The notes beneath the pieces are model-generated. The model worked only from the letters and a program-made list of their open reading frames with translations, ran no database searches and had not been told where the DNA came from. A stretch of DNA of 64,000 bases from Branchiostoma lanceolatum. Its lineage: Eukaryota; Chordata; Leptocardii; Amphioxiformes; Branchiostomatidae. This document shows positions 15,992 through 56,928 of this stretch, in pieces; position 1 is the first letter of the stretch; the number at the start of each line of letters is the position of its first letter. The position numbers and the translations under genes are program-made. Where the stretch lies: NCBI RefSeq assembly GCF_035083965.1, contig NC_089731.1, positions 131,501 to 195,500 on the forward strand. Direction: 5' to 3'.

Positions 15992-16201
15992 GGTAGTGGT
16001 AGTGGCTACGTAATGTTCACCTTGATTGGACAAACAAAGTCATGTGATGAAATGTTAATCTCAAGCGAAACTGGTCCCAGCCAGTCGGCAGGCAGCGCGC
16101 GATCTGTGAACCCGTCTGGTGTTGGGCTCCATAATTTCCCCTTCTTGTGCGTGTTTTTCTATAGTTTTCGTCAAAATTGACACTCTAGAGGTACCCTAAA
16201 C

Positions 16202-25005: not shown

Positions 25006-25019
25006 ATGCATCTGTACCT

Positions 25020-25345
25020 ATATAGCCGGTATAACCGCCATTCGGCGTAACACACCAGCTTACAAATGTACATCTGTATAACAAGTGCAACAGAACTCAA
25101 AAGTACAAATCTATCAGATGATGTATTGTGGAAGGTTGCAATAAACAGCATATGGGATGACAGACTGTGTGTGGGTTTCTTTTATTTGTTATGGACATCT
25201 GTATCTGTATGATCACCCTTTGGCGTAGCACACCAGCTTGGCAGGCAGGCGGTGGTTATATTACACTGAACAGCCTGTCACACCTTGTCTTTGCAGTCAG
25301 ATGTGCAGACTAGGAGTGACAGGCCATTCAGTGTAATATAACCAG
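25020..25345. repeat. Palindromic dispersed repeats (CAGCTG/GTGTAATATAACC family)
   Basis: Segments GCCGGTATAACCGCC, GTAACACACCAGCTT, GGTGGTTATATTACACTG and CAGTGTAATATAACCAGCTG occur as inverted pairs. The same words occur near 13398, 13885, 19840 and 47700. Probably MITE pieces. Confidence 0.6.
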
Positions 25346-25526
25346 CTGCTGCCACACAGCACTTACACTTGTAACAGGTAACACAAATGAATTACTGTAA
25401 AACTATACTTGAGACTGGACCGAGTTGTTAGCTTACATGTACACACAAAATCAGGTCTGATGACCGATACATACACCTGAGATGAATAGGTGGGGTCTGT
25501 GGTGTTTACATGTATTAAACCTGGTA

Positions 25527-26692
25527 CAGTCAAACCTGTATTAGCGGTCACCTTTGCATAGCGGCCACCTGCCCATAGTGGTCACTTTTTGTCGGTCCCT
25601 TGGATTTTTCCCATTGACATAAGCATTAAGAATTAGGCTATAACGGCCACCTGTCCAACGCGGTCGCGGCCAGACGATTTTCAGTCCCGCGAGTACAGTA
25701 ACACTGTAGGTAACGGTCACGGCGCGCCGGTAGAAGCCGCATCGCCACCGCACGCCGGGTTCAAAATCTTCATTTTTTCACGCAGTTATCAAATTTATGT
25801 GGATTCAACTGGATAGGATGATTATAAAGAAAACCAGAATTTTTTATCTTTGTTAGAAAATGTTTGACGCGAAGTCAGTATAATTTTCTTCACATGGCTT
25901 GCGTTTGTACATCGTAGCAAAATTGACCATTTCTGTGCATTTCGACTGGACAAATATTACGGCAGCTTTTTGGAAAATACAACTCGCACATGTAGCTGAT
26001 GCAGTAAGTTCGGGAAATGTTTGAATGCCGGCCCAATATCCGTTTTCCCCGGTGCTCAAAGTCAAAACGTGTTTCGCGCAATTTTCAAAATGGCGCTGAT
26101 AGTCAGCAGCACCAAGGAGGTTGGCAGCACAAAGGTCAACGGTAGATACCACTGTTTCGGAGGTATAATGCGCTAAATTTATTTTGCTGCAAAGTATCAC
26201 TGAGGATAATTACTTTACCAAAAGCTTTACAAGAATATTAATAACATTAATATGATGTACAATTTGGGCTATTGCAATTTTCTGAAAAGAATAAAGCCAT
26301 CAAAAGATCGACCTTCTTCTGAGTACCCTATTAGCATAATGGTAGAAGCTGATAATGACAAGCGGCAAGTGAAACAACAACAGACTAAGGAAAACTATCG
26401 CCACGATTTTATGTTTCAAAACGGTCGAAAACGAACAGTAAGTGGCAACTGAGCAACATGTATTTTGTTCTTAACTAACTAGGTGGCAACAACAATTGAC
26501 TTTCTAAAATGTGACTTACCTATGCAATGTTTACATGTGTACTGTACGGTGAATAAATGTATCTCAGTGGGTACTGAAAATATGTGTCACTCGTGGTCAT
26601 CATTAATCAACATTTTCTCCATAGCGGCCACCTGTCCTTAGCGGCCAGTTTTGGCCAGTCCCTTGAGTGACCGCTATAGACAGGTTTGACTG
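25527..26692. mobile_element. pogo/Tc1-mariner-like non-autonomous element, copy 1
   Basis: The inverted ends start CAGTCAAACCTGTATTAGC (left) and, reversed, CAGTCAAACCTGTCTATAGC (right), each flanked by TA (25525-25526 and 26693-26694). Subterminal GCGGCCACCTG words recur. TA duplication with CAGT ends fits the pogo branch of Tc1/mariner. At 1166 bp with no transposase recognisable, it is non-autonomous. Confidence 0.82.
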
Positions 26693-26694
26693 TA

Positions 26695-26886
26695 CCTAGC
26701 AGTGTACTCTCTGAGTAGAGGAGTTGGTCCGGCTGGTTATTCACATGTTTTTAGGTGTTTTGTAAGGCTTTCTATTTTGTTCCCTTTCCGTTATGTCTCC
26801 AACCGTGTGTTTGACAAAAATGCAGAAACTGAACACTTAAAAAAAAACCGGACCCACACATCTGTTTGAATTGTAGTGAGACTGCC
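26695..26886. other. Patch that differs between the two long duplicate copies
   Basis: This is the only stretch where the 16940-31418 copy visibly differs from 49509-64000: a 5-bp insertion, a replaced block of about 60 bp starting after TTCACATGTTTTTAGG, and a single-base insertion. The counterpart is about 59265-59466. Everything around it looks identical. Confidence 0.7.
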
Positions 26887-27099
26887 CCATTTGTTTATTT
26901 ATGTACCCCATCTGTTTATTTATACTTCTAGGCAAGGCCTTCTGCTGGCCTGTTTCGGGAACACTGTCACACCCCCCATTATGGAATGTAATGGATTTAC
27001 AATTATCCTTACTAATTATGCAGATTAGCTCCTGTTTTCTATAATTAGACATCCATTGTGTAAAGCACCATCTGAGCTCTCACATACAAAACTTCACGA

Positions 27100-27770
27100 C
27101 AATCTCTTCACCCCGTCTCAAGTAATACGTGTCCGAATGTCAAAACAAAAACACCCACTGCAGTTCTAAACAAGCCGCTAGGGGGCCCAAACTTGCAGAA
27201 CTTACTTCTTGTGGCATGAACTATCTACCACACAAATATCATGACCATAGCACTTTCAGAAAATATGCCCCTGAATTTTGAAGCTCCGCTGCAGTACCTT
27301 AGGTACTCGCTAGAAGGCCCATTATCGAACTTGACCTTCCTTTCCGTAAAACCTACCCATTCACTAAATATCATACAGATCCATCAACAGCTTCTTGAGT
27401 TATGTTGTCCACAAGAATTACACATCCACACAAAGCCCGCTGCAGTACCGACGGAAAATGCCAGGAGAACCATTTTTGAACTTGATCTCTGTTTCCACAA
27501 CATCTACACACCTGCAAAAAATCATGAAGATCCATCAACGTTTCCGTCACTTTTTTCGACGACATACAAACACACAAAATTTAAAAGTCCGCTGCAGTAC
27601 TGTTGAAAAACGCAAGGTAAACCATTTTTGAACTTGACCTTCCTTTGCACAACCACTACACACCTACCAAAAATCATAAAGATTCATCAAAGGTTTCTTG
27701 AGTTATGCTCTTGACATACATACAGACCCACCAAACAGCTGGCTCAACCGAAAACATAATCTACCCCGAG
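27100..27770 (+). repeat. Array of diverged repeats (GCTGCAGTAC / CTAGGGGGCCC family)
   Basis: About five diverged units of 120-150 bp, with recurring AAGCCGCTAGGGGGCCC, CCGCTGCAGTAC, ATCATGAAGATCCATCAA and TTCTTGAGTTATG words. Open frames across it follow the repeat and are not genes. Relatives are at 3540-3730 and 15340-15640. Confidence 0.7.
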
Positions 27771-28169
27771 TACTATAGTACTCGGCGAAGATAATAAAAT
27801 CTGGCAATAAAACAATTACCAAGAGCATGCACCGCTGAACGTATTAAGAATGGGGATAAACCAAGGACCTAAACAAAGCGCCCTCCAGCGAACGCGTTGA
27901 GTAGTACATGTAAGGATACAAGAAGAAACATAAAAGAAGAAACTCTATAACGTTATAATCCTTAAATGTTCGCTTTTCCGGTCGAAAACATGAAAGTTAA
28001 CGATATAAATAAAGTATGAGAAACACTAGCCTGCATGACAGTTTACTTTGAAAATCACTCGAAGTGTAGATGCCTACCTGCCTACGTGCCCAGGCCAGTA
28101 ACTGACCCCCTGCTCTCCAAATGTGACATTAATATCGCTGCATTATCGCTGAAATATGTGGCCTCTTAC

Positions 28170-28222
28170 CCTTTCCAAAGTCTCTGATCGTTTCCTCCAA
28201 CAACGCCATGTTGCGTCGCCAT
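28170..28222 (-). CDS. Candidate first exon of an unidentified minus-strand gene
   Basis: On the minus strand an ATG at 28222 in the context CAAGATGGCGACGC opens 17 codons (MATQHGVVGGNDQRLWK) and meets a strong donor, GGTAAGAGG. AAGATGGCG is also a YY1-type promoter word often found at start codons. IRF-type motifs lie 270-400 bases upstream. I found no downstream exons with confidence, so the product is unknown. Confidence 0.35.
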
Positions 28223-28490
28223 CTTGACTCGGGCCCTTTTTCGCGGCAGATCAGTCAGAACAACGCCGACGCCCGTCTACTCGTGCATCCATCCACACGT
28301 TCGTTACATGAATGATACAGCATAACATCCGTTACACTTTTCACCATCATCGTGAGACTTGTAGGATCTTTCAGCTAGTAGCACTATCTTGAGTAGACAC
28401 GGTAACTGTTCTGACGGTAATATGAAATATTTCCGCAAATGCAGAACTGACTCACTTCCACAATTCCACACCTGTTTGTGAGACGTTTTA

Positions 28491-28620
28491 CTTTCGGTTT
28501 CGATACGTCACTGGGGTCGCAATGTCACGTGACTCGGCCTTCCACCTTTCATTTGTCTAAAAATAGTCACACCATAAGCATAGTAGTAGTCAATAGTATG
28601 CGCTTTACGTTTCACTTTCA
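28491..28620 (-). promoter_or_regulatory. Two IRF/ISRE-like sites upstream of the candidate exon
   Basis: On the minus strand, GAAACCGAAAG (28491-28501) and TGAAAGTGAAAC (28609-28620) both match GAAANNGAAA, the core bound by interferon regulatory factors. They lie 270-400 bases upstream of the candidate ATG at 28222. Confidence 0.45.
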
Positions 28621-28699
28621 ACGGCTGAAATGCTGATAATGTTAAATTACATGTACCTAGAAACACCGATACGCGGTGCCCAAATCAACGAACTCACCC

Positions 28700-28848
28700 T
28701 AATCTCCAAGAAGATCGAACGGTTGCAAAGACCGTTTCCATCTAGCAAAAGGAGGTTTTATCATACGCGGCAACCCGAGTGATTGCAATAAAAACTGCTT
28801 TTGCCAGTTGGATACGGTTTTGCAACCGTTCGATCTGCTTGGAGATTA
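28700..28848. mobile_element. Small foldback MITE
   Basis: TAATCTCCAAGAAGATCGAA and the following CGGTTGCAAAGACCGT pair with ACGGTTTTGCAACCGTTCGA and TCTGCTTGGAGATTA. The element is about 149 bp with arms of roughly 50 bp. Related end words (CATCTGCTTGGAGAT) occur near 10540 and 15015. Confidence 0.7.
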
Positions 28849-30110
28849 ACCTCACGCATACTAGCAGACGACATGCTGAACTACATACAAATGCTTCAAA
28901 GGGATCTTGACTTATAGCCGCGAACCCACAGGCACAATCAACCGCAATACCCGCGTCTGTGGCGAACCTCCTTCATGGAGGTAATTACATCAGCCAGAAG
29001 GACATTTTATTTTCAATACCTCAATCGTGACAGAATGTTGACCACGGAACGTGTTCTTTTGTTGTTGCTTACTTTGATTGTTTGTGTCAAATATACAGCC
29101 TAAACAATAAACACACTAAACAGCCGCTCAAGAGGACTTGCCGTTTTATGGTATTTCTATAAACAAGTTGGCAAAAGTCGTCCCTGACTGCAGTACAATC
29201 ATGGATTACTAGTCGGCGCTTCGTTACCGCCTGAAGCTCCTGACATGAAGCATGCAGTGTCCACTCCCACAAATTATGTCACTTACTTAAACTTTCCCCC
29301 GACATAAATTACACTAAAACGCTAGCATGTCCGTTTTTGGTAGCAAATACTTATTTTTAGTTGCTGTTGACGTCTATCGTATTTTCGATATCGGTGGTGG
29401 TTCACAACTTTTGCTTTTCATGAAAGGTACAATTCGGGTGCAACAGTCCACTGCACACGAAGAACAAATTATAATCGACTCTTCGAGCCTCAGTTATCGT
29501 ATTGGGGTCACTTGAATGGTAGACCCTTGTGACTTAGCACCGTAATTGTGAAGCTCTTCGTAAGTCAATCCCTAGCAGAGAAGAAAGATCGGCTCACCCC
29601 AAAACGGCTCAAACAAAAACAATAACATAGTGAATACCGATTTTTCTTCAGGTAGTGGTTGTAAACACTCTCTTTCGCCGCGTTGATATGACCTTTGTTT
29701 TGGGGTGCTACACCCGGGATGATTTTCTGTTCAACTTTACAACATGAACAAAAAGATGCTGAAATATTGATGTCTTGTCAGGTGTGTTGATAATTTTGCT
29801 TCTCATAAAAGGTACAATTCGGGTATGCAACAGTCCAGTCCACTGCACACGGAGAACAAATGAGAAAAATGAGGGCGACCCCTCGATCCCCAAGGCTGCT
29901 CTGCTTTATAATGAACGGAGCTGGAAATAGATACAGTAGAATGTTTTTCAATCAATCGTGCTTAAAAGTTCGTACAATTCTTTCTTTCCAAAATGTAGAG
30001 TGAGTACATATAGTGGTAATGAAAAGACTAAATTACGTGACGAATTAGCAAGCAATTGCGTTTCTGAACAGGTGTGATTTCCACCTGCAGAATCGGTATA
30101 TCAGGGGCAA

Positions 30111-30230
30111 CACTTTTACTTTCACACGAGGAGCAGTCAGGGCAACACTTTCACTTTCACACGAGGAGCAGTTAGGGCAACACTTTCACTTTCACACGAG
30201 GAGTAGTCAGGGCAACACTTTCACTTTCAC
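30111..30230 (-). promoter_or_regulatory. Tandem array of four ISRE-like sites (35-bp period)
   Basis: Four 35-bp units start at 30111, 30146, 30181 and 30216. Three contain CACTTTCACTTTCAC, that is GTGAAAGTGAAAGTG on the minus strand, a match to the IRF/ISRE core GAAANNGAAA; the first has one change. Each unit also has ACACGAGGAG. Enhancer function is inference. Confidence 0.5.
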
Positions 30231-30309
30231 TCGTCAGTTCATTCGACGAGACAGGCAGGACAATGAAAGGTCGCTACATGTTGTTTCTGTATATTCATGG
30301 CAGTTTTTC

Positions 30310-30600
30310 TCTAGACTTAAGACTGATGAAACTAAATGCATTACATTTAAGGTTTACATTCATTGGTTGATACAAAACCAAGAAATCTAGCCAAAATCAC
30401 CGTAAGACTAAAAACTGTTTCTCTTCGTCCATTTGGAAATGGGTCATGTCAAATTGCCGATCGGAGAGGTTTCAAACTCATGAATATTCATATAGTTGTC
30501 TTGCGTTGTCTTAAGGACACGCCTACTCCCCTCGGCAGCACATTCCACAATGCAGTACGCAACATTTTCTGCCAGGTGGGTAGAAAATGTTTTTCGGTTA
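30310..30600 (+). repeat. Left member of an inverted repeat pair
   Basis: It contains CATTCATTGGTTGATAC, GAAATGGGTCATGTC, TAGTTGTCTTGCGTTGTC and GGACACGCCTACTCCC. A diverged reverse-complement copy lies at about 31950-32215. Identity is highest in the part reading VVLRCLKDTPTP in one frame. Probably a dispersed repeat. Confidence 0.7.
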
Positions 30601-31496
30601 ACCAAAAAAAAGGTCGTCAAATGTTGTCTATGTGTAAACATCTGTTTATCTAAGTTGTTTTATAGACTTACACTTCGAGAAACATAGCATTTATTTGATT
30701 CCAACAACAGGATTAGAAACACTTTTTTCTGATACAAACTGTGATCTTCATATATCAATCTCTCAGTCCAAAAAAATGGGTCAATTGAAATTGCTGATCC
30801 GAAAACTGGCAGGGTGGAATGTCTACAACTTTGCCGGCTGGTACCTCCATTAAAGAATGTTGGTTTTAAACAGCGACACAACGTTATAACATGAAATAAA
30901 AGAAAGATATTAAAATGCATATTATGTCTTGTCAGGTGTGTTCATAACTTTGCTTCTGATAAAGGGCGCAACTCGGGTGTGCAACAGTCCACTGCTCACG
31001 AAGAGCAAACAAGGATCGACCCTTCAAGCCCATGGTATTTCTTCCTCAACATTAAAAAGGAATCTGAAAGATATACCCTTAAAGGGCTTTCCATCAATCT
31101 TGCCTGTCAGTTCGGACAATGAAAGTTTGACAAATGTCGTCTATGCCTGAAGGACAAATGTCTATGGCTGAACATCTGTTCATTGATGTTTTGTTTCCAG
31201 TCTGAGAGGACCCAAACATACAGTCAAACTTCGCCTTTACCCAAAACCCACATAGTTAACCACCTCCAGCCACAAACCCCATTGTACGAGCGAAACAGTC
31301 CCGTCCAATTGTGCATCATCAAAACCACTTTTTTTGCAGCCCAACGAGAGAAGCCTTGCCCCACTTAACAACCACGATTCATTCCTAGTGTCGTTCAGCC
31401 AGCAGCGGCCATCTTATTTGATACTTTATGTCGGAAGAAGCAGTGGAGAAGCTTTACTGAACGTTATGCTGCAGCTGACTAAGCTGGCTTAAGTGA

Positions 31497-32215: not shown

Positions 32216-33784
32216 AGTTTTAATATGTTAGTCTTTTAATGACTAGTGAATGTAGAGAGGAACCTGGAATCAGCAACCGCTCATGGTACTGAAGAAAAGG
32301 GGTTGGTGAGGAGGAGTGGTTGCCACTGACAAGTCGGTGGACGCAAAAAGTTCACATTGGCCCGCTTCAGCCAAGTTTCAAGGAAACATATCTACATGGG
32401 ATTTTCTACAGTCAATATTGCTATGAAAATAGATTTCATGAAAATATTGTTTAACCATCAGAGCCGCGTTGGTCTTAAAATCGAAGTGATTGTTCGGTAG
32501 GTTGTCTGTTTCTTATGAAACAGTCAAGGAGAAAGTGCTTTACGTTTTTTATGTGTAGAATCCCTTCTTCTGCAAATTTGGTACTTTGGGCGGCATCACT
32601 GTGCTTCGCTGATTCGCACTCACATGGCGCAAAAAGGGGCGGATCCACATGTAACGTTACACAGTTTCACTGTTGTTCGACCGTATTTACCATCTTGCCA
32701 TCGATTAAAAAACTATCTGGTGCATCCGAACATATTCTTTTTAACGTTACACATTCGAAGCGTTGCTCAACAGCAAATATCTTTACCATAGTGTAAACGT
32801 TATGAGCATTGCGAGGTGTATCAGTCAAATATTGTTTCTAATCCTGTTGTTGGAATTAAATAGATGGTCCAAGGCGCGGAGCCTGCAGAAATCCTCAATT
32901 TGAAATGCTCGCTGCTGGGCTGGTTCCACTTTCAAACGATTCTAGTTGATGATTTCGAGCATGAATTTCCAAGTGTCAACCAGACTAGATTCCGTAAAGA
33001 TCTCCACCCAAAACGTTTTCTATGCAGTGGACAGAAAATTCCGTGCCCTAACTCAGGTGACCTCAATACGCCAATTGCCCCATGTGCAGTCATAGGACTG
33101 TAGGTTTTGCACCACCCACACCGGGAAGTGTGGTGGGTTCTTTAACGTGCTACTGTTGTGGCCCTCCACAAACCCCCATTTAACGTCCAATCCGAGGGAC
33201 GTCCATAGCCAAACTTGGTACCGAAGTTACGACAGAAGCTAGTAGCAACTAGGCATAAATATTTCCGATGAAAAAATGACAGGTCAGCGTTTTTTTAAAG
33301 TGATTTTTGTCGGGGAGAAACTATAGATAGGTTTCACATTTTGAAGGAGTGAACACTGCATGTTGTTATTGGGTGATATTTATGTCAGTAACTTCGGGCG
33401 GTACAGAAGCGCCGACTAGTGATTTATGATGGTACTGCAGCGTATTCTATGGTACGGACGAAAGGCCAGATATAAACCTGTGTCTGACATTTCACCTCAC
33501 CGACCATATTTCCTCTTTTGAGAAAAAAGGGAGGATGCTTAAGAAATTAAATGAAATGGTCCAGTCCAGAAGTCACATAAATAAACAGCAATTTGTTCAG
33601 TTGTGGTGTCATCGTTAACTTTGACATCCAGTTTTAGGCTCTCTTATTTTAAATCAATAAACTACGAGGCAAAAGAGTTCAAGAGTGTGAATAGTAAGAC
33701 CACTAGGGCTGTCTTGTTGTTTTCGAGCACATTTAAGTACGTGAACTTTTGCTAGGAAACAGTATCATTTAGCAAGCCTGTGTC
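32216..33784. other. Intergenic, no gene recognised
   Basis: No supported gene. Around 33110-33200 (GGTTCTTTAACGTGCTAC and CACAAACCCCCATTTAACGT) there are words typical of SINE or retroelement bodies. Confidence 0.5.
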
Positions 33785-33894
33785 CTGCATATAATTGGTA
33801 GCCTGGAACTAGAAGCCACGAGTTCCAATCCCGGCTGTGTCGCTCACCCGACATACACGCTACAGGAAAGGTTTGTAGTCCTTGGGACGGGACG
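33785..33894 (+). mobile_element. tRNA-like SINE fragment abutting the RAG element
   Basis: An A-box-like TGGTAGCCTGGAAC and a B-box-like GAGTTCCAATCCCGG, 30 bases apart, indicate a tRNA-derived SINE head. The body stops at GGGACGGGACG, where the CACTATG end of the RAG transposon begins. A fuller SINE is at 44036-44230. Confidence 0.45.
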
Positions 33895-33941
33895 CACTAT
33901 GAAACTTACGCTATTCCCAGCGGTGCCTGGTCGCCATCTTG
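33895..33941 (+). repeat. Left terminal inverted repeat of the RAG element
   Basis: CACTATGAAA, then CTTACG, then after a diverged stretch CGCCATCTTG at 33932-33941. The same three blocks, in the same order, form the right end. CAAGATGGCG is also a YY1-type promoter word. Confidence 0.82.
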
Positions 33942-34035
33942 GATTTTCCCAATTCGCGCAATGTTTCATGGGAAATTTCCGACTTCTCACGCATATTCAC
34001 GCGAGAATGTCACGGCGAGATCATAACATAAGCAC

Positions 34036-35591
34036 ATGGCCGCGCGCGGCCGGGGCCGAAACATGTCCTCGGACCCGGTTTTTACACCCCTTATCATACC
34101 TGGAAGCTCTCAGAGTAGCGGCAAGAAGTCCTCAGACATTACTCTAGGTTCAGAGCTTTCTGTAGTGTGCGACAGTTTTCCGGTTCTTGATCCTGCCCCT
34201 TCTGTCAAGCGATTTTTGTGTTTTGTTTTTGGCAATGGAGCTATGTCAACATTAACATTTGACGTCGGAGAGGAGGGGATTAACTTGACAAAGATGAAGG
34301 TAGGTAATGATTTATATATTGCAAAATGTCCATAATTTTAACTGGATGATGTATATAATATAGCTTGTGAAATAATTCAACTAAAATGACAATGTTGCTT
34401 TTATGGATAATGTTAAGAAGTGTCTGATGATTGATGACATATTTCTGTTATAATGAACTAGGAGGTGAAAGCCATGCCCCACCTGCCATGTGGCAGCACA
34501 GCGGTCTGGGGCCCCCCCTTGCCACCCAAACCTGGAAAGGCCATCAGACAAGTCGTTCTCTGGGGCGGCTTGGACAAGGGAAGGTGGTGCTGTTCAAATG
34601 ACCTGATTAAGGTGCTTATCTTCTGTTCATCTTATAGCATAAATTTACACTTTCTCTTCCTATTTATTGAGCTGATACACCATCATCATTATGACCCGAC
34701 TCAAAATAAACCTGTTCTCAAGGGGTCCTCAGTGTGTCCTGAATACCATTAACTACTAAATAATTTTAAAGTCACTGCAATAAGATCAGAAATAATCAAC
34801 ATAACAAAAATATCACTGGTACCTTACATTGAAACCAAATATTGAATCTAGTGTAATAATCTGTATACTGATGTTTGCAGGTTGACCTGACCATGACACC
34901 AAAGACTACCACAGCTAAGGTCTGCATCCTTCCTGGGGAGAAACAAGACAGTGTCCCTTCCTCCAGAACTGGGCACATCCTGGTGGCCATCAGCAGCACA
35001 CAAGCCATACTGTTTGGAGGGCTGGAGCTGTCCAGCAGGCACAAGAGATTCGGCACATGCGCACAGAGCTGCCGAGATGGTTATTTTTATTCGCTGGACA
35101 TGCCAACACTGTGCTGGCAGAAGTTGCCTCTACCACCGTTAGTTCCGAGGGCATACCACTCTTCCACATGGATACCTGCGTCATCCACCATTGTGATTGT
35201 AGGTGGTATTACCTATAGTGGTCACTGCCCATCAGAGAGACTGTCAATCTCAGATGTAGTTTGCCTTAAGATCTATGATGGCCAGTATACCCTGACAGAG
35301 GCTCACATGGAAGGGGTGCCTGACTCGTATGTGTCGAGTGCCTCTGCCTCTGCTCTCTGTGATGATCGTTTTGTTGTCTATGGTGGGTACCGTCATGACA
35401 AGTCTGGTCTTCATCGCCCAGAGTCAAGTAGTAATATGTACATCTTGGACCTACGAACAAGGAAGGCTGTTGTGCACCATGCACCAAGTAAAATGGCCAG
35501 TGCAGGCCATACGTGCCAAAGATTAAATGATAGTACTGTAGTCCTGATTGGAGGGACATGTAAATCAGTGAACTGTTGTAGCAATCTGTAA
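34036..35591 (+). CDS. RAG2L: RAG2-like Kelch protein (3 exons)
   Basis: Exons 34036-34299, 34462-34611 and 34881-35591 (all phase 0; donors GTAGGT and GTGCTT, acceptors CTAG and GCAG) give 374 residues from the ATG at 34036; an in-frame ATG at 34063 (MSSDPVF) may be the true start. Five blade motifs end in double glycine: VVLWGG (119-124), AILFGG (180-185), IVIVGG (242-247), FVVYGG (302-307) and VVLIGG (358-363). This fits a six-blade Kelch propeller with one blade lacking the motif. Vertebrate RAG2 (about 527 residues) adds a PHD finger that reads H3K4me3; none is coded here or in the next kilobase, as reported for amphioxus RAG2L. Its role is cofactor of the RAG1-type transposase at the element ends. 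The ATG is only 141 bp from the left end, so the terminal repeat must overlap the promoter. Confidence 0.93.
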
Positions 35592-35869
35592 ACATCTAAA
35601 ATATGTACTGTTTTTCTATCTTGATTTGTTTTATTGTTACAAATTTGTTGTGCTTTACTGTACATACGTGTACATGTATGAACGGAGATTCACTTCAGTC
35701 TGACTGGTAAAGATGTTGAGCTATGCCTCTCTTACTTCACATAACTTATTTGGAAAATTTCTCCATCTAAATGCACAGTTGATAACTACATGTAGTACAG
35801 AATAGACTATATGTAACTAATATATCAACATGACATAGACGTTGTGGTATTCAGTATGTAAAGTTTTAT

Positions 35870-36205
35870 TTACATTTCAAACATGCATATGCTGCCAAGC
35901 TTTTCATTAAAGCATTACAAAAAGTTTTCATCTGTCATTTCAAACATGCGTATGCTGCTAAGCTTTCAAGCATTACAAAAAGTTGTCATCTGACATTTCA
36001 AACATGCATATGCTGCTAAGCTTTAAATTAAAGCATTACAAAAAGTTGTCATGTGACATTTCAAACATGAATATGCTGCTAAGCTTTAAATTAAAGCATT
36101 ACAAAAAGTTGTCATCTGACATTTCAAACATGCATATGCTGCTAAGCTTTAAATTAAAGCATTACAAAAAGTTGTCATCTGACATTTCAAACATGCATTT
36201 GGGGT
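35870..36205. repeat. 63-bp minisatellite derived from the RAG1L 3' end
   Basis: About six units with 63-bp period in the best part (starts at 35994, 36057, 36120, 36183). They contain CATTTCAAACATGCATATGC and CATTACAAAAAGTTGTCATC. The sequence across the RAG1L stop (36552-36610) has the same order of words, so the array looks like a tandem expansion of the RAG1L tail and 3' UTR, with the stop codon and the last codons included in altered form. Confidence 0.85.
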
Positions 36206-36344
36206 CCTAGGGGAGGCAACGAGGCAGGGAAAAAGCTTTCAATTAAAGCAATACAAAATTTTTTCATCTGACTCTGAGTCACTTTCGTTATGAAAGAAGT
36301 CAAACCCAAATAAGATAGAATTTAGTGTTAGTATTTGAACTAGA

Positions 36345-36445
36345 ATAGTCACATGCTATATTGTTACCAATTGTCTGTCCGTCCTTCCATGTTTTATGTA
36401 CTTGCAATTAGCCTACGGGAAAGAACTTGCAATAAACTTATCATA
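36345..36445 (+). repeat. Retroelement tail inside the RAG element
   Basis: TTGCAATTAGCCTACGGGAA and AGAACTTGCAATAAACTT match the dispersed tail seen at 12300, 14025 and 15105 in the other orientation. It lies between the 63-bp array and the inverted zinc-knuckle fragment. Confidence 0.6.
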
Positions 36446-36454
36446 TGGTTATGC

Positions 36455-36532
36455 ATGACAGAAAGATCACCGTGTTGTGGTTGTTGTGGGAGGGTAGGGC
36501 ATAACGTACATAGAAATATTGAGGAATTAAAC
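36455..36532 (+). pseudogene. Inverted fragment of the RAG1L zinc-knuckle coding region
   Basis: The plus strand reads ERSPCCGCCGRVGHN, a close copy of the RAG1L C-terminal ERSLCCGRCGRLGHN, which is coded on the minus strand 150 bp away. One conserved cysteine context is kept but the frame soon ends (stop at 36533). It is an inverted partial duplication, not a gene. Confidence 0.85.
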
Positions 36533-36546
36533 TGATTCAGTAAAGT

Positions 36547-36552
36547 TTTATT
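36547..36552 (-). terminator. Polyadenylation signal of RAG1L
   Basis: AATAAA on the minus strand, 37 bases after the RAG1L stop codon. Confidence 0.6.
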
Positions 36553-36588
36553 CACATTTCAAGCATGCATATGCTGCCAACTAAAGCA

Positions 36589-39500
36589 TTACGAAGCGTT
36601 TTCATCTGACTCTGAGGACTCAGACAACGTACATGTTCTGGCGTTATGCCCTAGCCTCCCACAACGTCCACAACATAGTGATCTTTCTGTCACGGCTGCC
36701 TTATCTCTTAACGTCTTGGATGTGTAGAGCCAGTGAGCCCAAAGCACATCTCTTAGGCCATTGTAAGTATTGCCCTTCCTGGCATGACCCACCCGAAGCT
36801 GACGGAAGAGTTTATTCCCTGCCTCGTTGCCTTCGCTAGACAGGGCCCCTACAGACCCCAAACCAGATGGATGCTCAATCAGCTCCTGCACATGTTCGAT
36901 CACCTTGTGTAGATAGTTAGTACACGACTTCGAGACATAAGGAAAGTGGGTTTTAATGGCATCAGCCATTTCTACTGCCCTGGCCTTATACTGGCCCACC
37001 TCATCTGGCCTGTCTTTAAGAGGCCAGTTTGCACGATAAACCTTTCTGAGGGGGCGAAACTTGGCCAAAACTTCTGTCAGCGCACTTCTCCTTTCAGGCT
37101 TTTCGACAAGGGCCACCAACTTTTCAGCATGTTCAGTTTTGAACATCTCCCTGGCATAGTTGCCAGCCATCATTAAAGTTGGATTTAAGCCCAGAGATTC
37201 TTTTAAATGTTTATCGAGTTTAGACTCTGCATCAGCAATTTGTTTTTTCACACCTGCTGTCTTAGCCCAGCTATATACTTGAGCCATTTCCCTTACAATA
37301 AGGGATTTAAAGAAGTTGCCCAGGTTTATGTCCGCATGGGTGGCGTCAATACCCCGCTCCCATGGCTCTGTGGTCAGCAGTGGGAATCCCTTTACACCAA
37401 ATGTGTCTTTCTCTTGAGACTCATACTTTATCTTACTTGCTGTTACTTCAACCTTCTTTAGCGTTCTTGTTATTTCATAGGACCCTGCTTTCTCCAGGGC
37501 TTCTTCTCGCACTGCCTCGCACAATGTGCATAAGTACTTTGAGCCAGCCCCTGCAAGACCTCCGTGTGCTCTGTCCCACTTCTCATCTATCATACTGTTG
37601 AAAAATGTCAAATAGTGGGCACGTTGTGTGCCATCACTCATGTGAACTCTCATTACTTTGTCTTTCATAAGCAGGCGTTGTGATTCAATTGGTCCCACAC
37701 ATATAGCAACAGTGCCCTCATCATTCTCATCACCTATACACTCCAGGATAGGACGGTTAGAGCGGACGGAATTGGGATTTGGGTCTTCATATATGGTAAC
37801 CTCTGAATTATTATGCATGATTGAACATTTAAGGACACAGAAGGAGAATCTAAGAGCCTTGTCGGGCAATAAATGGTCTGCTTTCTCTTTGTGTATGGAC
37901 ACATCCCCCAATCCGTCCGCCCCATCCTTACAGATTGTATGAATTACTAAAGTGGGATCATTAGGATCACGACCAAGCTTTGTTATTCCGTTAACAATCT
38001 CATCATCCAATTCTTCTAGAGTCTTTGCAACTGCATGTGCATACGGAAATCTCACACCTTTAGTGTTGGGGCAAGGAAAATCAGGTACATGTTCATGAAA
38101 GTCACCAGTTACACTTTCAGGTTCTAAAGACTCTCCACTTGGCACATCTAGATCTCCCGTCATCTTAACAGGTGAATGAAAGTAGTTTTCAGAGTAGTCT
38201 GTACCCTCAATAGAATACCTCGCCATACCAGGCATTAAGGTTTTTTCTATTGCATCAAGTTGCTTAGGCGGACACAATGTGGAGAGACCCTTTTCTTTCA
38301 AGATGTTATATTCACGGATATATTGATTTTTTGTCATGAGCAGATCTAACCTCATTCCTAAACACTCTTCTGGTGTCATACCTGGCGAATCCTCCCCATG
38401 CCATAAGGCATCTATCTGAGCCGACATAGGTCTATTTCCTTTATCATACAAATGACTTCTCAACAAGAAAAACAGCACATCTTCTTTGTCCTCATAGTTT
38501 TCTTGGCAATATTCATCAATGTGTTCGATCAAGGGTTTTAATCTCTTTTGCTTGACATGGTGCCTAGTAACATCATAAAGCCGTGCTTTACATAAGCGCT
38601 TGCGTCTTAAACTTTCAGGCGTTACCCTTATCTTTACACATACATGTTCATGTTGGTCAATACGTTCAAGAGGTTCAATTGCTTCACAACCATTAGCAGA
38701 ATATTTACATCTTACCTTAAGTGTATCATACACATTAAGTAAATGGCCAGTCAGTGGTATGACATCATCAAGGGTCATTGCACCACGACACGATGGACAG
38801 ACACCAGCCTTTTTGAGCCAAAACTCAATACAACTACCACAATAGATGTGCCGGCAAGTACTGACAATCACAGGGCTTTTACATGGCACTCCTCGGCATA
38901 CAACACAAATAAAGGTAGAAGCTACAGCCTCATCATCAAATCTACTTACTTCCATACTGTCAAACTCAGTGGCAGCTCCACTTTCGACCTCTGATGACTC
39001 GTCAAACAGTTTTCGTTTATATGCCAAGTTCTGACCTGATGCCTGTGATGTTGTAGCCTGTGATGTTGTAGCCTGTGATGTTGTAGCCTGTGATGTTGTA
39101 GCCTGTGATGTTGTAGCCTGTGATGTTGAAGCCTGTGATGTTGTAGCCTGTGATGTTGTAGCCTGTGATGTTGTAGCCTGTGATGTTGAAGCCTGTGATG
39201 TTGAAGCCTGTGATGTTGTAGCCGGTGATGTTGTAGCCTGTGATGTTGTAGCCGGTGATGTTGTAGCCGGTGATGTTGTAGCCTGTGATGTTGTAGCCGG
39301 TGATGTTGTAGCCTGTGATGTTGTAGCCGGTGATGTTGTAGCCGGTGATGTTGTAGCCGGTGATGTTGTAGCCTGTGATGTTGTAGCCTGTGATGTTGTA
39401 GCCGGTGATGTTGTAGCCGGTGATGTTGTAGCCTGTGATGTTGTAGCCTGTGATGTTGTAGCCGGTGATGTTGTAGCCTGTGATGTTGTAGCCGGTGATG

Positions 39501-39858
39501 TTGTAGCCGGTGATGTTGTAGCCGGTGATGTTGTAGCCGGTGATGTTGTACCTGAGACGTTGGATGTGGCAGGGCGGCCCTTTCTTCTTTTGCAGTGACA
39601 GTTACCATCGGTCATGTGTGGCTGGAAGATGGCCATGCCCGTCTCTGCCTTTGGTTTCTCTTTTAATCGCTGCAGCTTCAAACGGCATTTGTTGCACAGA
39701 AACTCTGGATGTAACTCCTTGGAGTCCTGCCTCACATCCACACCGTATGACTGACGGATAACCTCGTCAAATGTGAGCACTTTAGCACTCCATCCTTTTT
39801 TCAGCCTGCTGTTGCACACCCTGCAAACAGTCTTAAGGTACTGTCTGTGCTCCTCCAT
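36589..39858 (-). CDS. RAG1L: RAG1-like transposase
   Basis: A 1089-residue frame in one exon. Residues 1-100 hold the RAG1 N-terminal zinc-binding pattern (CRVC at 12-15, CNKC at 55-58, CHC near 88). Residues 104-272 are about 34 five-residue repeats, TTSPA or TTSQA. A RING finger spans C318-C357 (C318, C321, C335, H337, C340, C343, C354, C357), followed by a zinc finger C384, C391, H403, C407. The core aligns with vertebrate RAG1: D648 in ADGLGD, D758 in MIDEKW and E1012 in SEGNEAGNK match the catalytic D600, D708 and E962; the E of GDEND matches E662. The tail has a CCHC knuckle, C1063-C1066-H1071-C1076, as known in amphioxus RAG1L. It should cut and join the CACTATG ends with RAG2L, in the nucleus. 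CACAG stands directly before the ATG, so a 5' untranslated exon is likely. Confidence 0.97.
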   Translation of the reverse strand: MEEHRQYLKTVCRVCNSRLKKGWSAKVLTFDEVIRQSYGVDVRQDSKELHPEFLCNKCRLKLQRLKEKPKAETGMAIFQPHMTDGNCHCKRRKGRPATSNVSGTTSPATTSPATTSPATTSPATTSQATTSPATTSQATTSQATTSPATTSPATTSQATTSQATTSPATTSPATTSPATTSQATTSPATTSQATTSPATTSPATTSQATTSPATTSQASTSQASTSQATTSQATTSQATTSQASTSQATTSQATTSQATTSQATTSQATTSQASGQNLAYKRKLFDESSEVESGAATEFDSMEVSRFDDEAVASTFICVVCRGVPCKSPVIVSTCRHIYCGSCIEFWLKKAGVCPSCRGAMTLDDVIPLTGHLLNVYDTLKVRCKYSANGCEAIEPLERIDQHEHVCVKIRVTPESLRRKRLCKARLYDVTRHHVKQKRLKPLIEHIDEYCQENYEDKEDVLFFLLRSHLYDKGNRPMSAQIDALWHGEDSPGMTPEECLGMRLDLLMTKNQYIREYNILKEKGLSTLCPPKQLDAIEKTLMPGMARYSIEGTDYSENYFHSPVKMTGDLDVPSGESLEPESVTGDFHEHVPDFPCPNTKGVRFPYAHAVAKTLEELDDEIVNGITKLGRDPNDPTLVIHTICKDGADGLGDVSIHKEKADHLLPDKALRFSFCVLKCSIMHNNSEVTIYEDPNPNSVRSNRPILECIGDENDEGTVAICVGPIESQRLLMKDKVMRVHMSDGTQRAHYLTFFNSMIDEKWDRAHGGLAGAGSKYLCTLCEAVREEALEKAGSYEITRTLKKVEVTASKIKYESQEKDTFGVKGFPLLTTEPWERGIDATHADINLGNFFKSLIVREMAQVYSWAKTAGVKKQIADAESKLDKHLKESLGLNPTLMMAGNYAREMFKTEHAEKLVALVEKPERRSALTEVLAKFRPLRKVYRANWPLKDRPDEVGQYKARAVEMADAIKTHFPYVSKSCTNYLHKVIEHVQELIEHPSGLGSVGALSSEGNEAGNKLFRQLRVGHARKGNTYNGLRDVLWAHWLYTSKTLRDKAAVTERSLCCGRCGRLGHNARTCTLSESSESDENAS
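39038..39550 (-). repeat. 15-bp coding minisatellite in RAG1L
   Basis: About 34 tandem 15-bp units (TGATGTTGTAGCCTG or TGATGTTGTAGCCGG on the plus strand) encoding TSQAT or TSPAT steps. By my count about 20 units carry Ser-Gln and 14 Ser-Pro. The Ser-Pro units are concentrated toward the N-terminal half and the last dozen units are all Ser-Gln. Confidence 0.95.
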
Positions 39859-40489
39859 CTGTGCATGTGAACAGCATATAACACTGTCAATATTGACACT
39901 ATCACATAAAACATAAAGGGACTACTTTAAGATTTAGAATTAGAAATAAATAGATAAATAAAACATACATACTGATACAATACATTTGTTTAGAAACCAT
40001 GATAATAGTATAGGCTACATTTTTCATAGGCTTTTAAAAAGCAAAATTACAATGTCCAATGAGATCAGAACTGACCTGTGTGTTGGGAGGGGGAGGGGGG
40101 CGGCTGCTAGCCTTTGCATAATTTAATTCAGCCTGAACACACTCAAACCTTCTCCAGCAGAACTATTTTTCAAATCCTGAACATCCTAGCATGTTGTGTC
40201 TATACTAAATCTGTATTAAACCATACAATAGAATCGATGGGAACGAGACCAATACATAGATTTTGTGTCGACATACCCATGCATATCCTTCGTGTCGTTA
40301 AAAATACGGTCGCGTCGTTGAATGACACCATTTTAAAATGGCTCCACAACATCTCAGCATACACCAGAAAAATACGCTAATTCCAGAAAAAATAATTAAG
40401 AAAACTACAGCCTAATTACTCCAGGACATCATTAAAGTCTTAACTTATCCCCCGAGACCAAGTCGCAAATTCAAAAAGTCATAACTCAC

Positions 40490-40620
40490 CGATAATTTGT
40501 CGAAGAAAGACGCGGTTTTCACCGTTTTGAAGCCTGCACGCCTCTCTCTGTAAATGACACCAGTGCGCATGCGTATACAGAATCCCTCGTTCCCAAGATC
40601 TTTTGCGCATCTGGAAGTAC
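40490..40620 (-). other. Probable 5' untranslated exon of RAG1L
   Basis: On the minus strand, CTTCGACAAATTATCG is followed by a strong donor GTGAGT at 40489. The matching acceptor (ACATGCACAG) ends at 39859, immediately before the RAG1L ATG. The exon start is not visible; the upper limit given is a guess. Confidence 0.45.
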
Positions 40621-40677
40621 TAGAAGTCTGGGGTGCCCTGGGACAGAGTCAGCCCAGTCACGTGGTACACTAATGAG

Positions 40678-40720
40678 CAAGATGGCGGAAAACCTTGTGC
40701 ACACGTAACTTTTCATAGTG
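40678..40720 (-). repeat. Right terminal inverted repeat of the RAG element
   Basis: Read from the outside in: CACTATGAAA, AGTTACG, then CGCCATCTTG (reverse complement of 40678-40687). It ends at 40720, next to codons of the FAM111-like gene B. Confidence 0.82.
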
Positions 40721-43700
40721 CAGCGATCAGCCAACAACCGCAACATCGCAAATTGGGTCAACCAAGAGGAAGTCGCAAAAGCTCCCACTCCCAGGAAAAT
40801 GGTGGCAACTTGCAGGTATTTTTGAGACACTGTTTTGTATTGATCATAATGTATTATAGCCCCTGCCTCACAGTGAATTAGATTTCCCCACAAACGAACA
40901 ATCAATTTTCTTGTGTGTGCGTGTGTATGTGTGAGTGTCACCATGTGTGCGTGTGTGTTTGTGTCTGACTGTGTGCGTGGGTGCTTGTGTATATGTGACT
41001 ATATGTGTCAGTGTGTGCGTGCATGTGTGTGCGTGCATGTGTGTGCGTGCATGTGTGTGTTTGTGTCTGACTGTTTGCTTGTGTGTGTGTGTGTGTTCCA
41101 TGTGTGTTTTACCATTATGTAACAGTTATGATTGTCATATCAAATTCATCAATTGTTCCTTCTTGAATAGGCAATAGAAAACAAAACCATCAAATCGAAG
41201 GAAAATGAGCCACCAACCTCAACACACATGCCTGAGGAACAGCAAAGCCAGGGTATGTCTGCTTCTATGTTTGTAAATAAATGAGAGGAGTGAACAACTG
41301 AAACAAAAGATGTACAAGGCAGGGATCGAAATTCATATTTAGGAATAGGCGCACTGATGTACATAGCCTAAAGATTTAGGTGCACAGAAAGAACTTTGGG
41401 TGCACAATATAAAACAAAGTAGAATGTCAGCAAAACATATTTACAAACCCTACTGTCTCTCCTAGCAACTTCAATCTAAAATTCTACAGCTATCTTCAAA
41501 ATTTGAAGGAATACATCAAAGTACATTAAGGGTTATATCTTTTCTGATACTTGAATTTCAAGAATATTATGTATACTAGTGTACAATAGTGCCTTTACCC
41601 TATAGCCTACAAAAATATCTATGTGCGCTGGTGCACCCACAGTCAAGAATTAGGTGCCCAGTTCCAATTCTGGGTGCACACAGGTGCACATGCACCCAGT
41701 ATTCCCAGCCCCGCACTAGGTAATGTGACCTATGGTAGGACACAGCTCAGTCTATATGCAAGTAGGTTAAAGAATACCTGGATTTTCAAACCTCCATGTT
41801 ATATATCATGCATAAATGTGCATGTTGTCCTTTGCATTGATTGAAATTAATAGCTGTATCTAGTGTTCTGGCCAGCCTGAAATTTTTACCCGTCATCTCA
41901 ATTTTGTTTGATGGAACATCCTGTTGAGCGCGAGAGGTGCACGACAATCTTAGGGCATCCAGCATGCTTCCCCGGGAAAAGTTAAAATCTTAACCATCTA
42001 AAACACTATCTCTTGCATTTTGAGGGGCAAATTTTGCTGGTAGATTAAGCTTAGTTTAATAGCAACTCTATCCAAAACTTAGAGCTCTCTCTATATCTTT
42101 ACACCCCCTGATTTTTGTCCATGAAAAATGATGCGCTGGGCAAATTTTTTGTCAGTCAGGAGTGACAAAAATCTGTCATAATATGATGGGAAAACGGGTG
42201 CTGGCTAGAACACTGGCTGTATCATCAATTGGGTGCTTTTATTTTTTCTCTTCAGGGGGTGTCATGTTTCAGCTGAAGGTTGACAGTGAAGTTTTTGAGA
42301 TCAGAGCGCCGAGAGATCAACCCATCCTGGATGCTCTTCAGGCCGACACAAGGCTGAAGAAGATCAAGAAGAGGCTTCCTAAGATGTACCTGCGCCCCTA
42401 CGGTAACCCTCCCCCAGTCAAGGGGATACCAAACTTAGGCAGCCCCTGTAGTGTGATAGAGGACGGTAGCTTCGAGGCAAAGTTACAGAAGGGAAAAGAT
42501 CAAATCCTTAACTTGTATGGTAAAGATGAGCTACAGTTCAGTGAGAGGCATAAGTTCTACCTTGATCTTAAAGACACCAAAAACAAGTGGCTTACCAAGG
42601 AAAACCCAAACAAGTTTGATTGTGAAATTTTGATCGACTGCCTTCCCAATGATACACTTCTGAAAGCTCTGTACAGAGATGCGAGGATTAATAATGATAG
42701 ACTGAGGGAAACTAAACTCACCACCCAAACCGGCGACGTTAACGTCAAACTTACAGATAAGTGTCACCGTCATCAGGACACGACCTTCAACTGCAAAGTG
42801 GGTTATGACTTACAGGTCAGTGAGAAAGACTGGGAAAAAGTGTGTGCAGTACAGAATGACAAGGACAGAAGTTGCCAGACGATGTCCAAGTGTCCTGATG
42901 TAGCTATGTCAGGTCAACAGGCAGAAGTAGCCACCTCAGGGCCTGACACAGGCAGTGGGAGTCCACATGCAGAAACCCAAGAGGTTATTGTATATAAGAA
43001 AATCATCCATAGGAGCCAGACTCAAGTTGCCCAGCTCTTGCAGTTAGACTTTGAGACAAAACCCCAAAGTAATAAAAAAAGTTCTGCAGAAAAGAAACGT
43101 AAGGATAAACTGGATGAGTTTGTGAAGCCTTTTAGACAGGATTTTTACAATGCTAATGAGGGGATCAGTGTCCTTATGGTGGAGAAGCTTGTTAAGCTGG
43201 CTCCCTCGGTTGGCCTTCTTGTAAAAAATAATCGTCCTCGTGGCACATGCTTCAGGCTTGGCTCCAGGTATGTACTGACTAATAGGCATGTCACGGAAAG
43301 GGCAGACATGGTCGGCATGTGCAGTGCAAACGATATTGCCTTTGTTAACTTCAACTACAAGGAGTCAGGGGATTATGACTACAACAAGCAGTCATTAGTG
43401 GAGCATGACTTGTTCAAGTTTAAAGTTGTGCGTGTTGTGTGCAGCAGTCTGAGTGATGAGTTGGACTACAGTCTGCTAGAACTGGACATTCTCAATGACC
43501 AGTTTGACAAGCTGCCGCCAGGTCTTGGGCACTTAATAGAGTCACCCGGGGCAGGTACATTAGTGACAATCATTGGACACCCAGACGGTAGGCCCAAAGA
43601 AGTAGACACTAGCTGTCCTATAATAGGTCCAAAGCACAGCATCACAGTTTATCTGAAGTTCCACCCAGAGCGTTGTGCAGATTATGCCATGGCGTACAAC

Positions 43701-43943
43701 CCAAACAGAGATAATTACAAGTCTGCGTTTGGTCATGGTTCCTCTGGGTCCCCAGGGTTTGACCATGACGGGAAGCTTGTGGTTATGCACGCTTGTGGGT
43801 ACCATTTGTACGATGGGTCTAAGACTGAGGTGCAACAAGGTGTGAGAATGACAGCCATAAAGGAGGATCTCAAAAAATATCTTGATGAAGATGTATGGCA
43901 AGATTTGTTCCTCCCCCCTACAGAGAACATGGAGGTTGAGTAA
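40721..43943 (+). CDS. FAM111-like serine protease, gene B, 5' truncated at RAG element
   Basis: Exons 40721-40815 (partial), 41171-41252 and 42256-43943 join in the phases used by A1. The first piece reads [17 protein letters not shown] and is related to exon 2 of A1. The last exon encodes the protease, with the His codon at 43287 (TNRHV), Asp at 43464 (LDYSLLELD) and Ser at 43743 (HGSSGSPGF), so the active site is intact. The product would lack the PIP-box exon, which I cannot find upstream. Gene B also has one exon 2-3 type module where A1 has two. The frame of the first piece stays open for about 90 bp into the transposon end but has no ATG there. It could be a broken gene or one driven by the element; the intact catalytic exon argues for function until recently. 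Confidence 0.72.
40908..41105. repeat. TG/GTGTGC-rich simple repeat in gene B intron
   Basis: Degenerate (TG)n with GTGTGCGTG, CATGTGTGTG and GTGTCTGACTG words. Both strands show spurious Cys/Val or His/Thr frames. Confidence 0.95.
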
Positions 43944-45765: not shown

Positions 45766-48561
45766 TTGAGCCCTAATGCTACAAACAGTACAGAAGTTGG
45801 TCTTAAGTATTTCTGTACTTAGTTTAAATGACATACTTCTCTATGTATATACAGTAGTACCTTGAGAAATTGTTGAAATACTTCTCGGTCCCATATCTTA
45901 TTTTAGACCAAGCCAATGTAATGTTTTAGTTCTTGGAGTTTGAAATGATTATGCTGAAGCAGCTGAACTGGGAGTAAATACAGGCATATCCAAGTCTCTC
46001 CCAGTCTTATCTTTCCATGATGCCTTCTGGCTATTATCTTACTTAAATTCTCCAAGAACCAAACAAATGAATTGAGCCGGCCTTTGTCTCATATCTCCTG
46101 CCACTGGTTTGTTTCATTAGCAAATTCACTTAATTGACAACCATGTATGTCTGTATAATAGATGCAACTGTTAGTGTTACATGTACAGTAATCAAACGCA
46201 CAAATCTATCAGATCATGTCTCGTGGAAGGTTGCAATAAAGAGCACATGAGAAGCCAGCGTTTGTGTGGGTTTCTTTTTTCTGATATATATGCACTTGTT
46301 TGCATGCTATTAGTAACACTACCAGAGATGAATGCCTGTATTGCTATACTTGATATTGTCCTGTCCAGAGTGGTCAGTTTACCCATAAAATCAGGTGATG
46401 ATGGTGGTCTGACACACCTGAGTGGGGTCTGTGGTGTTTACATGTATCAAACCTGGCATTTCTACAGTAAAATTCTCAGCCTAGTCATTTTGATAAAAAC
46501 AGCTGCTGAGTAAGGACAAGTCCAGTCACTGCTACCTCTTTTTCAGGTCTCGGATATATGGTGTAAGAATACATATAAAACATAAGCTACAAATTCTACC
46601 CAAGAACCTGAGGTGGTAAATACTAGTAAAAGCTTGCATTATGATCTCAAACAATGACGACAAATACAGTTCATTTATCCATATTTTAGCATCAGTAAAT
46701 TAACATTTGATGTCTTAAAACATGCAATCTGGGGCACATGAATAAAATCCTCGAGTTTCCATTACAATCAAAAAGGTTTTCAACATCTGAAGATGATACA
46801 TTGGTACCCCTAATGTTGGTTAAATTGATTCTCCTTGGCATGGTTAGCTGCAAGCTTATTGATTTACCAATCATTGGTTCACTTTTCTTATAAACTGCAT
46901 CTTAAACCTTCTAAAACGTTTGTACACCAAATTATAAACCTACCCCTACATGCAACATGTAAAGTTATCTCTACTTTTAGAGAGCTATCTTTACATCCAA
47001 AGTCTTTACATCTCTAGAGCTATCTTTACATCCTAAGTCTAAAAAATTCTCTAAATTCGAAATCTCTAAACCTAATGTAAACCTGCCTGGACTGATGTGG
47101 GGAACTCACACGATGACTAGTCTCCTTGGGCTACTTGTGAAATAGTAGAAACTCGCCAATGTGTGGTGCAGAGGGACTCTATATCTGCCCAAGGACATTA
47201 ACGTTATATAGCTAGGATGTCAGAGAACAATGGTAACTTTCTTTTAATACGAAGGTATTCACGAATTTGATCGGTGAGTACTTTAGTGTTGGAAGAAAGT
47301 CTAGCATTGTTCTATGATTACTACTAACACAGATGCGCTTTCACGATTATATAGGATGCCCTTTAATCAATCAATCGTTCGCAGGCATCAGTGTGCCCTT
47401 GCTCTGCCGAAATATCAGGTCAAACCGTCTCTGCAAGATGGGTAGAGCGAAATCATCATTGTAGCTCCTGTACTACATCTATTGAGCACGCCATGTTGAG
47501 AATGTTTGAATTAAAATACCTAGCCTGAGATTTTGCAGTTATGTTCTGAATTATAATATTCATCGCACAAGAACAATTGTCCTTGACTAGTAAGCAAAGT
47601 CCGACCTCTCGATGCCATATCAAATATTCGCATGGATTCATGGGAGCGAGTAAAGAAGTTTGTGGCTTGAACGAACTTTTCTGTATCTATATCTGCATCT
47701 ATATAGCCGGTATAACCACCATTCGGGGTGACACACCAGCTAACCTAGGTACTGCCATAAAAAATCACACTTTGATAGTTATTAGTAGTTCCTCTGCGAC
47801 CGCCTGTGGAACGAACCTTAGTTTGTAAGTTTCCCAAAACTATATGCTACGAATCGATAAGATTTTTTGATGTATTCAAGTCAAGTGTGATCATGGTTCA
47901 TGGCTGATTAAACTTTTCTGAAAATGAGAATAGAAAAAAACGGTTTAAGCATGATTACTGACAGGAACATAATTCTTTTTTCAATCAAACTCATTGAAAT
48001 GATATGATTAATGGGAGAGCAGGTGGAAGCGAACCGTGTCCACTTGCAGGGGAAGGGAAATCGTTTGTGTCGTCACTTTATTTCAGATTAATTTTTGAAT
48101 GAACGCGCTCTAGAAGAGCATAGCGTTATATCATACTTAATATGCCTTCGTTTCCAGTCCATTTGTCAGTACCTTTATCTTTTTGCAAACACATGCTCAA
48201 AGGGTACTTGAAAGAGGACGCACAGATACGATAACATAAAACGTGTTATGTCTATAGATCTTTTTGATGTCTCTCGAATTTATATGCATTTGTACTACAC
48301 TGCATGAATGCGAGTTATTACGTAACGTTACAGGCTAGACTTTTCAAAAAATAGGCCCAAGGCACCTAAACGTTACACTATGTCTCTCTGTAAACGGTGA
48401 GCGCTTTCGTGCTCTCCCAATAAGAACCGATGAACTACTAGAAAATACAAAGACTGAGCCGGCTCCTTACATCTGCTTGAAGATTATTTTTGCGTCCTGT
48501 GATACCGGATATATACCACAGGCGGCGCCTTTACCCTCATTATAATAACTACTTATAATAA
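45766..48561. other. Spacer between gene B and A2
   Basis: No gene recognised. About 45.6-46.5 kb is related to 24.2-25.5 kb downstream of A1 (for example GGAAGGTTGCAATAAA), so this spacer is an older duplicate of the A1 3' flank. About 47.14-48.54 kb is the diverged counterpart of 13.52-15.08 kb upstream of A1. Confidence 0.6.
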
Positions 48562-48569
48562 TGACGTCA
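48562..48569. promoter_or_regulatory. CRE-like site upstream of A2
   Basis: TGACGTCA about 210 bases before the A2 ATG, conserved in position with 15984 upstream of A1 although the flanks have diverged. Confidence 0.45.
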
Positions 48570-48779
48570 GGTAGTGGTAGTGGCTACGTGATGTTCACCT
48601 TGATTGGACAAACAAAGTCATGTGATGAAATATTAATCTCAAGCGAAACTGGTCCCAGCCAGTCGGCAGGCAGCGCGCGATCTGTGAACCCGTCTGGTGG
48701 AGGGCTCCATAATTTCCCCTTCTTGTTCGTGTTTTTCTACAGTTTTTGCCAATATTGGCACTCTAGAGGTACCCTAAAC

Positions 48780-56922: not shown

Positions 56923-56928
56923 AATAAA
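56923..56928 (+). terminator. Polyadenylation signal candidate of A2
   Basis: AATAAA, second copy of the site at 24354. Confidence 0.5.

Follow-up and report, generated by a model that had tools for sequence, protein, structure and literature searches.

Within a 64,000-nucleotide stretch of the Branchiostoma lanceolatum genome (assembly GCF_035083965.1, contig NC_089731.1, positions 131,501 to 195,500; hereafter the window), the interval 33895-40720 reads as a ProtoRAG transposon that has canonical ends and retains its full coding capacity, a reading to which we assign a probability of about 0.93 from the sequence. Its anatomy, homology, catalytic residues and ends are those of a ProtoRAG. 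An earlier note, made from the letters of the window, had proposed an intact and possibly recently active RAG1L-RAG2L transposon here. Homology, catalytic residues and ends bear out the element itself, together with its open genes, acidic triad, zinc-site positions and canonical borders. The terms intact and recently active were overstated, since the 5-bp target-site duplication is missing and no sign of mobility emerged in our analysis. As a kind of element it belongs to an already known system, and the missing duplication is a small point.

Two open genes homologous to RAG1 and RAG2

The two genes converge tail to tail, are free of stops and frameshifts in the open reading frame (ORF) analysis of the window, and are both homologous to their B. 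belcheri counterparts, BbRAG1L and BbRAG2L. RAG1L occupies 36589-39858 on the minus strand (1089 codons plus stop). The earlier note would have abandoned its reading had this 1089-residue frame lacked profile similarity to RAG1; the Pfam family RAG1 (PF12940) reaches its cut-off with E=6.3e-84. A RING finger is matched as well (zf-RING_2, 29.1 bits against a cut-off of 27.3), and an N-terminal RAG1_imp_bd match stays below threshold (18.5 against 23.3). In the PDB the best match is 6b40_A, the B. belcheri RAG1L (E=0), followed by vertebrate RAG1 from E=1.3e-92. In a three-way alignment with the mouse protein, 559 of the 639 aligned positions of the core are identical to BbRAG1L of 6b40 (87.5%).

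The same alignment places D648, D758 and E1012, the acidic residues picked out earlier, at mouse D600, D708 and E962, the catalytic triad. The proposed zinc modules likewise find their counterparts, C777, C780, H984 and H989 falling at mouse 727, 730, 937 and 942, the zinc-site positions. At position 896, which aligns with mouse 848, RAG1L and BbRAG1L both have Met, and so does the mouse chain used. Wild-type mouse RAG1 has Arg848, which curbs transposition.

A CX2CX4HX4C motif lies at residue 1063, in the C-terminal tail and in the place of the CTT* domain of BbRAG1L; from its sequence, we infer that it would bind zinc. The CTT* domain is required by BbRAG1L for cleavage (PMC8289069). Further towards the N-terminus, an in-frame array of 15-bp repeats (39041-39562, minus strand) codes for units of the TTSPA/TTSQA type, and a repeat region is mentioned for BbRAG1L also (PMC8289069). 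Along this minisatellite, three frames of the minus strand and one of the plus strand stay open.

The window copy differs at 11 of the 205 positions at which BbRAG1L equals mouse RAG1 and at 62 of the 397 positions at which the two are unlike (Fisher p=1.9e-4; positions gapped in mouse, 37 of the 639, are excluded). Since the differences avoid the positions common to BbRAG1L and mouse, purifying selection acted on the lineages between BbRAG1L and the window copy, though not necessarily since this copy last moved. RAG1L residues 292-1089 were also compared with bacterial and archaeal contigs (10 pattern matches) and with viral contigs (7), in collections not aimed at lancelets, and none of these matches was confirmed.

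RAG2L lies on the plus strand and is spliced rather than a single frame. Exon 1 (34063-34299) starts at a Met aligned to Met1 of BbRAG2L and ends at a GTAGGT donor; another in-frame ATG lies further upstream, at 34036. Exon 2 (34462-34611) is preceded by AG and followed by GT, and exon 3 (34881-35591) includes the Kelch region and the stop. With GT and AG at both introns, the three exons yield a protein of 365 residues, which aligns end to end with residues 1-366 of 6b40_M, free of gaps at both exon junctions. Of 363 aligned positions, 276 (76%) are identical to the RAG2L of 6b40, and the alignment has 5 gap columns. Exon 3 alone brings Kelch families above the Pfam cut-off, the RAG2 family PF03089 staying slightly under it (20.3 against 21 bits). 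The five Kelch double-glycine motifs reported earlier correspond to the five Gly-Gly pairs that we count in RAG2L. No PHD finger occurs among the Pfam matches of exons 1 and 3, nor is one matched in the exon 3 interval. The protein ends where BbRAG2L ends, which implies that it has no PHD finger; ProtoRAG RAG2L is described as lacking one (PMC8289069, PMC9673378).

The stretch between the two genes has a structure of its own. A tandem array of some five units, each about 63 bp long (35858-36201), resembles the last codons of RAG1L and its 3' flank and runs in the RAG1L orientation. It is followed, within 36207-36506, by two inverted fragments of the RAG1L 3' coding end, at 36207-36237 (31 nt, 87%) and 36456-36506 (51 nt, 90%). 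The whole of 35858-36506 is thus a mosaic of RAG1L 3'-end pieces, the inverted ones coming from the E1012 region and the C-terminal CX2CX4HX4C region.

Terminal inverted repeats

The 3' terminal inverted repeat (TIR), on the RAG2L side, lies at 33895-33941 on the plus strand and is composed of TR1 (CACTATG), a 31-bp spacer and TR5 (GCCATCTTG). The 5'TIR, on the RAG1L side, lies at 40678-40720 on the minus strand and has the same two elements around a 27-bp spacer. Both follow the layout that PMC8289069 gives for B. belcheri on the basis of an alignment including two other lancelet species. The ends are exact at 33895 (plus) and 40720 (minus), and the 27/31 asymmetry places each of them on the expected side. 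The window contains 11 copies of CACTATG and 6 of GCCATCTTG. Paired as TR1, a spacer of 20-40 bp and TR5, they form two modules, both at the ends of the element, whereas base composition predicts about 0.0005 such modules. The same two modules, and no others in the window, are recovered when one substitution per TR element is allowed with spacers of 25-33 bp.

The matching terminal repeats of the earlier note hold for TR1, TR5 and an A-rich start common to both ends, not for a long perfect inverted repeat, and ProtoRAG ends are normally without one (PMC8289069). That note had also asked whether the ends are shared with other copies; they match the published ProtoRAG layout, the only comparison made in this respect.

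Open genes, the DDE triad and canonical ends together make it plausible, as judged from sequence, that this copy is competent for transposition. RAG1L and RAG2L would, by homology, act as a DDE transposase that pairs one end with a 27-bp spacer and one end with a 31-bp spacer. Cutting would adjoin the CAC of CACTATG, a nick being followed by a hairpin on the flanking DNA, and the excised element would insert with a 5-bp stagger. TR5 would also serve as a YY1 site, and the ends as the promoters of the element. Cleavage, hairpins, insertion and promoter use are taken from published B. belcheri work or from general background. In 293T reporter assays, both B. belcheri ends drive bidirectional transcription, with TR5 as a YY1 site (PMC7481187).

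It is most improbable that the pair has instead become a domesticated or fixed host gene pair that is no longer mobile. Selection on the protein and the missing target-site duplication would suit such a pair; at both ends, however, TR1 and TR5 keep every letter and the published spacing, which a domesticated gene would not require. Polymorphic insertions and miniature inverted-repeat transposable elements (MITEs) of the ProtoRAG family are also in print for lancelets (PMC7481187, PMC9673378).

Flanks, duplication and neighbouring genes

Several points weigh against the ProtoRAG reading as stated above. The 6b40_A match spans RAG1L residues 415-1056, so that the first 414 residues and the tail past 1056 lie outside the comparison. 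In addition, a recent loss of constraint would be compatible with the selection test. Finally, there is no target-site duplication: the left flank GGACG (33890-33894, plus strand) is unmatched at the right end and the right flank CAGCG (40721-40725, plus strand) is unmatched at the left end. The two agree at 2 of 5 bases, and lengths of 2 to 10 all fail. ProtoRAG insertions are described as flanked by 5-bp duplications (PMC7481187, PMC8289069). The missing duplication implies either that the insertion did not stay untouched or that the assembly was joined at the element: one flank may have been exchanged later, or the assembly may be a chimera. Both alternatives concern the flank, not the identity of the element.

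A real rearrangement, in which one flank was removed or exchanged after insertion, has in our estimation a little less than an even chance. Two ProtoRAG copies might have recombined, or one TIR might have been cleaved and joined to other DNA in the manner of a hybrid joint. The unlike flanks begin exactly at the canonical TIR borders, which favors this account. Moreover, both flank 5-mers are G/C at 4 of 5 bases, like the published GC-biased ProtoRAG duplications (PMC8289069), so that each could be half of a separate duplication. Mis-assembly would, however, give the same picture here, and no partner was found: the window lacks a second TIR pair, and the left flank (33500-33894) matches only itself there at E up to 0.05, as does its inner part (33775-33894) at E up to 5.

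One particular form of such an event is in our view very unlikely, namely a germline RAGL reaction that severed one TIR and attached it to the 5' region of a FAM111-like protease gene. If true, it would amount to a natural V(D)J-like hybrid joint, with a TIR of outward promoter activity placed just ahead of the FAM111-like gene. Among the literature matches listed, none has a title that concerns a ProtoRAG copy lacking a target-site duplication, which is not proof of absence.

The element is part of a repeat unit some 33 kb long. The block 15977-31418 recurs in direct orientation at 48555-64000, the window end, with 99.3% identity by BLAST and an offset of 32.6-33.8 kb; upstream, 13586-15089 recurs piecewise at 47428-48546 with 76-91% identity. 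MAFFT counts 74 mismatches in the main block and BLAST 65-67. Those counted by MAFFT fall in two patches, 41 in 16012-16939 and 33 in 26752-26808, with none in 16940-26751 or 26809-31418. Outside the two patches, the block is base-identical save for small gaps near them. Such near-identity points to a very recent tandem duplication or to a false assembly duplication, which are alike in appearance. If the second copy continues in register, the position corresponding to the element, whether occupied or empty, would lie about 2.5 kb past the window.

This duplication bears on the other account of the unlike flanks, an assembly product in which two ProtoRAG copies or haplotypes were fused within the repeat, giving the element flanks from different places. 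We regard it as possible, with the odds against it. The flanks are indeed unlike, and mismatches confined to two patches are odd at the heterozygosity of 3.2-4.2% given for the group (PMC12500494). On the other hand, genes, ends and order all fit one element, and a very recent true tandem duplication likewise yields identical copies.

The gene context that can be named consists of FAM111-like protease ORFs in the duplicated region. Outside the element, about 1.4 kb past the 5'TIR, a FAM111-like ORF for a trypsin-type protease runs from 42132 to 43943 on the plus strand, with a FAM111A match in the PDB (E=3.6e-14). Both this ORF and that at 21213-22979 match Trypsin_2 in Pfam, and the protein of a third, at 53782-55548, is identical to that of 21213-22979; all three are on the same strand. 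No paper treating ProtoRAG and FAM111 together appeared among the literature matches. Immune-receptor segments were not seen among the part of the window's genes that was covered.

In a comparison with the paralogous gene as a possible source of the empty site, the right flank shares short blocks with the region ahead of the first protease ORF, the left flank matching only itself. A 25-bp block at 40794-40818 resembles 20255-20279, upstream of that ORF, at 88% (E=0.022 with a long query and 0.002 with a short one). Two more blocks keep to this order, namely 41169-41234 with 20737-20802 (71%) and 41280-41313 with 20981-21014 (88%), and one is out of order, 41197-41261 with 18560-18627. The 25-bp block, which starts 74 bp past the 5'TIR at 40794, has a donor-like GGTA end and lies on the 5' side of two FAM111-like genes. 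We also asked whether the element interrupts an exon; the paralog frame matches here at E=1.1 only, and no gene model is claimed. Nor do we claim the left flank as a tRNA-derived repeat, which its B-box-like look had suggested: ARAGORN finds no tRNA in the window, Rfam (33000-42200, E up to 5) gives two weak matches that both lie outside the left flank, and the alignment with two other stretches is poor.

Elsewhere in the window, a C-type lectin domain is found at 6483-6926 (Pfam Lectin_C, E=5.6e-23). A reverse-transcriptase-like fragment, below the Pfam cut-off, lies at 17086-17484 in the first copy of the duplicated block, with the same ORF at 49655-50053.

Comparison with known systems

With vertebrate RAG1-RAG2 the window element has in common the RAG1 core, the RING finger, the DDE residues and the zinc-site positions, which align. 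The vertebrate RAG locus, a domesticated recombinase, is not known to carry TIRs, and its RAG2 has a PHD finger. The window element, unlike it, has transposon ends, a RAG2L in which no PHD finger was found, and CX2CX4HX4C in the C-terminal tail of RAG1L; with its TIRs present, it is not a RAG locus of the vertebrate type.

ProtoRAG was reported in lancelet genomes in 2014 (PMC4284660). A lancelet genome is described as holding about 53 copies, mostly not intact, with three polymorphic insertions (PMC7481187). RAG1L-RAG2L pairs of B. lanceolatum were reported in 2020 (PMC7204232), and for this species two full copies, 98.8% alike and on chromosomes 12 and 18, are described along with one copy with a truncated RAG1 and 13 MITEs (PMC9673378). 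A published alignment covers the TIRs of several copies in three lancelets, including B. floridae (PMC8289069). The window copy may itself be one of these published copies.

The closest comparison is with the B. belcheri ProtoRAG (6b40), whose BbRAGL is biochemically active (PMC7204232). The two have in common the tail-to-tail gene order known for ProtoRAG (PMC7481187), a RAG1L core 87.5% and a RAG2L 76% identical, CACTATG and GCCATCTTG at each end with 27 bp (5') or 31 bp (3') between them, a PHD-less RAG2L and a RAG1L repeat region. The window copy is unlike it in its proteins, whose 12-24% difference by itself suggests a lancelet other than B. belcheri or, less probably, a diverged B. belcheri copy, and in the missing target-site duplication; the latter, if real, might preserve the product of a RAGL-mediated rearrangement in the germline. 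Full ProtoRAG copies beyond B. belcheri, with a like end layout and proteins that differ to this extent, are useful for the comparative biochemistry of a transposase related to the V(D)J recombinase.

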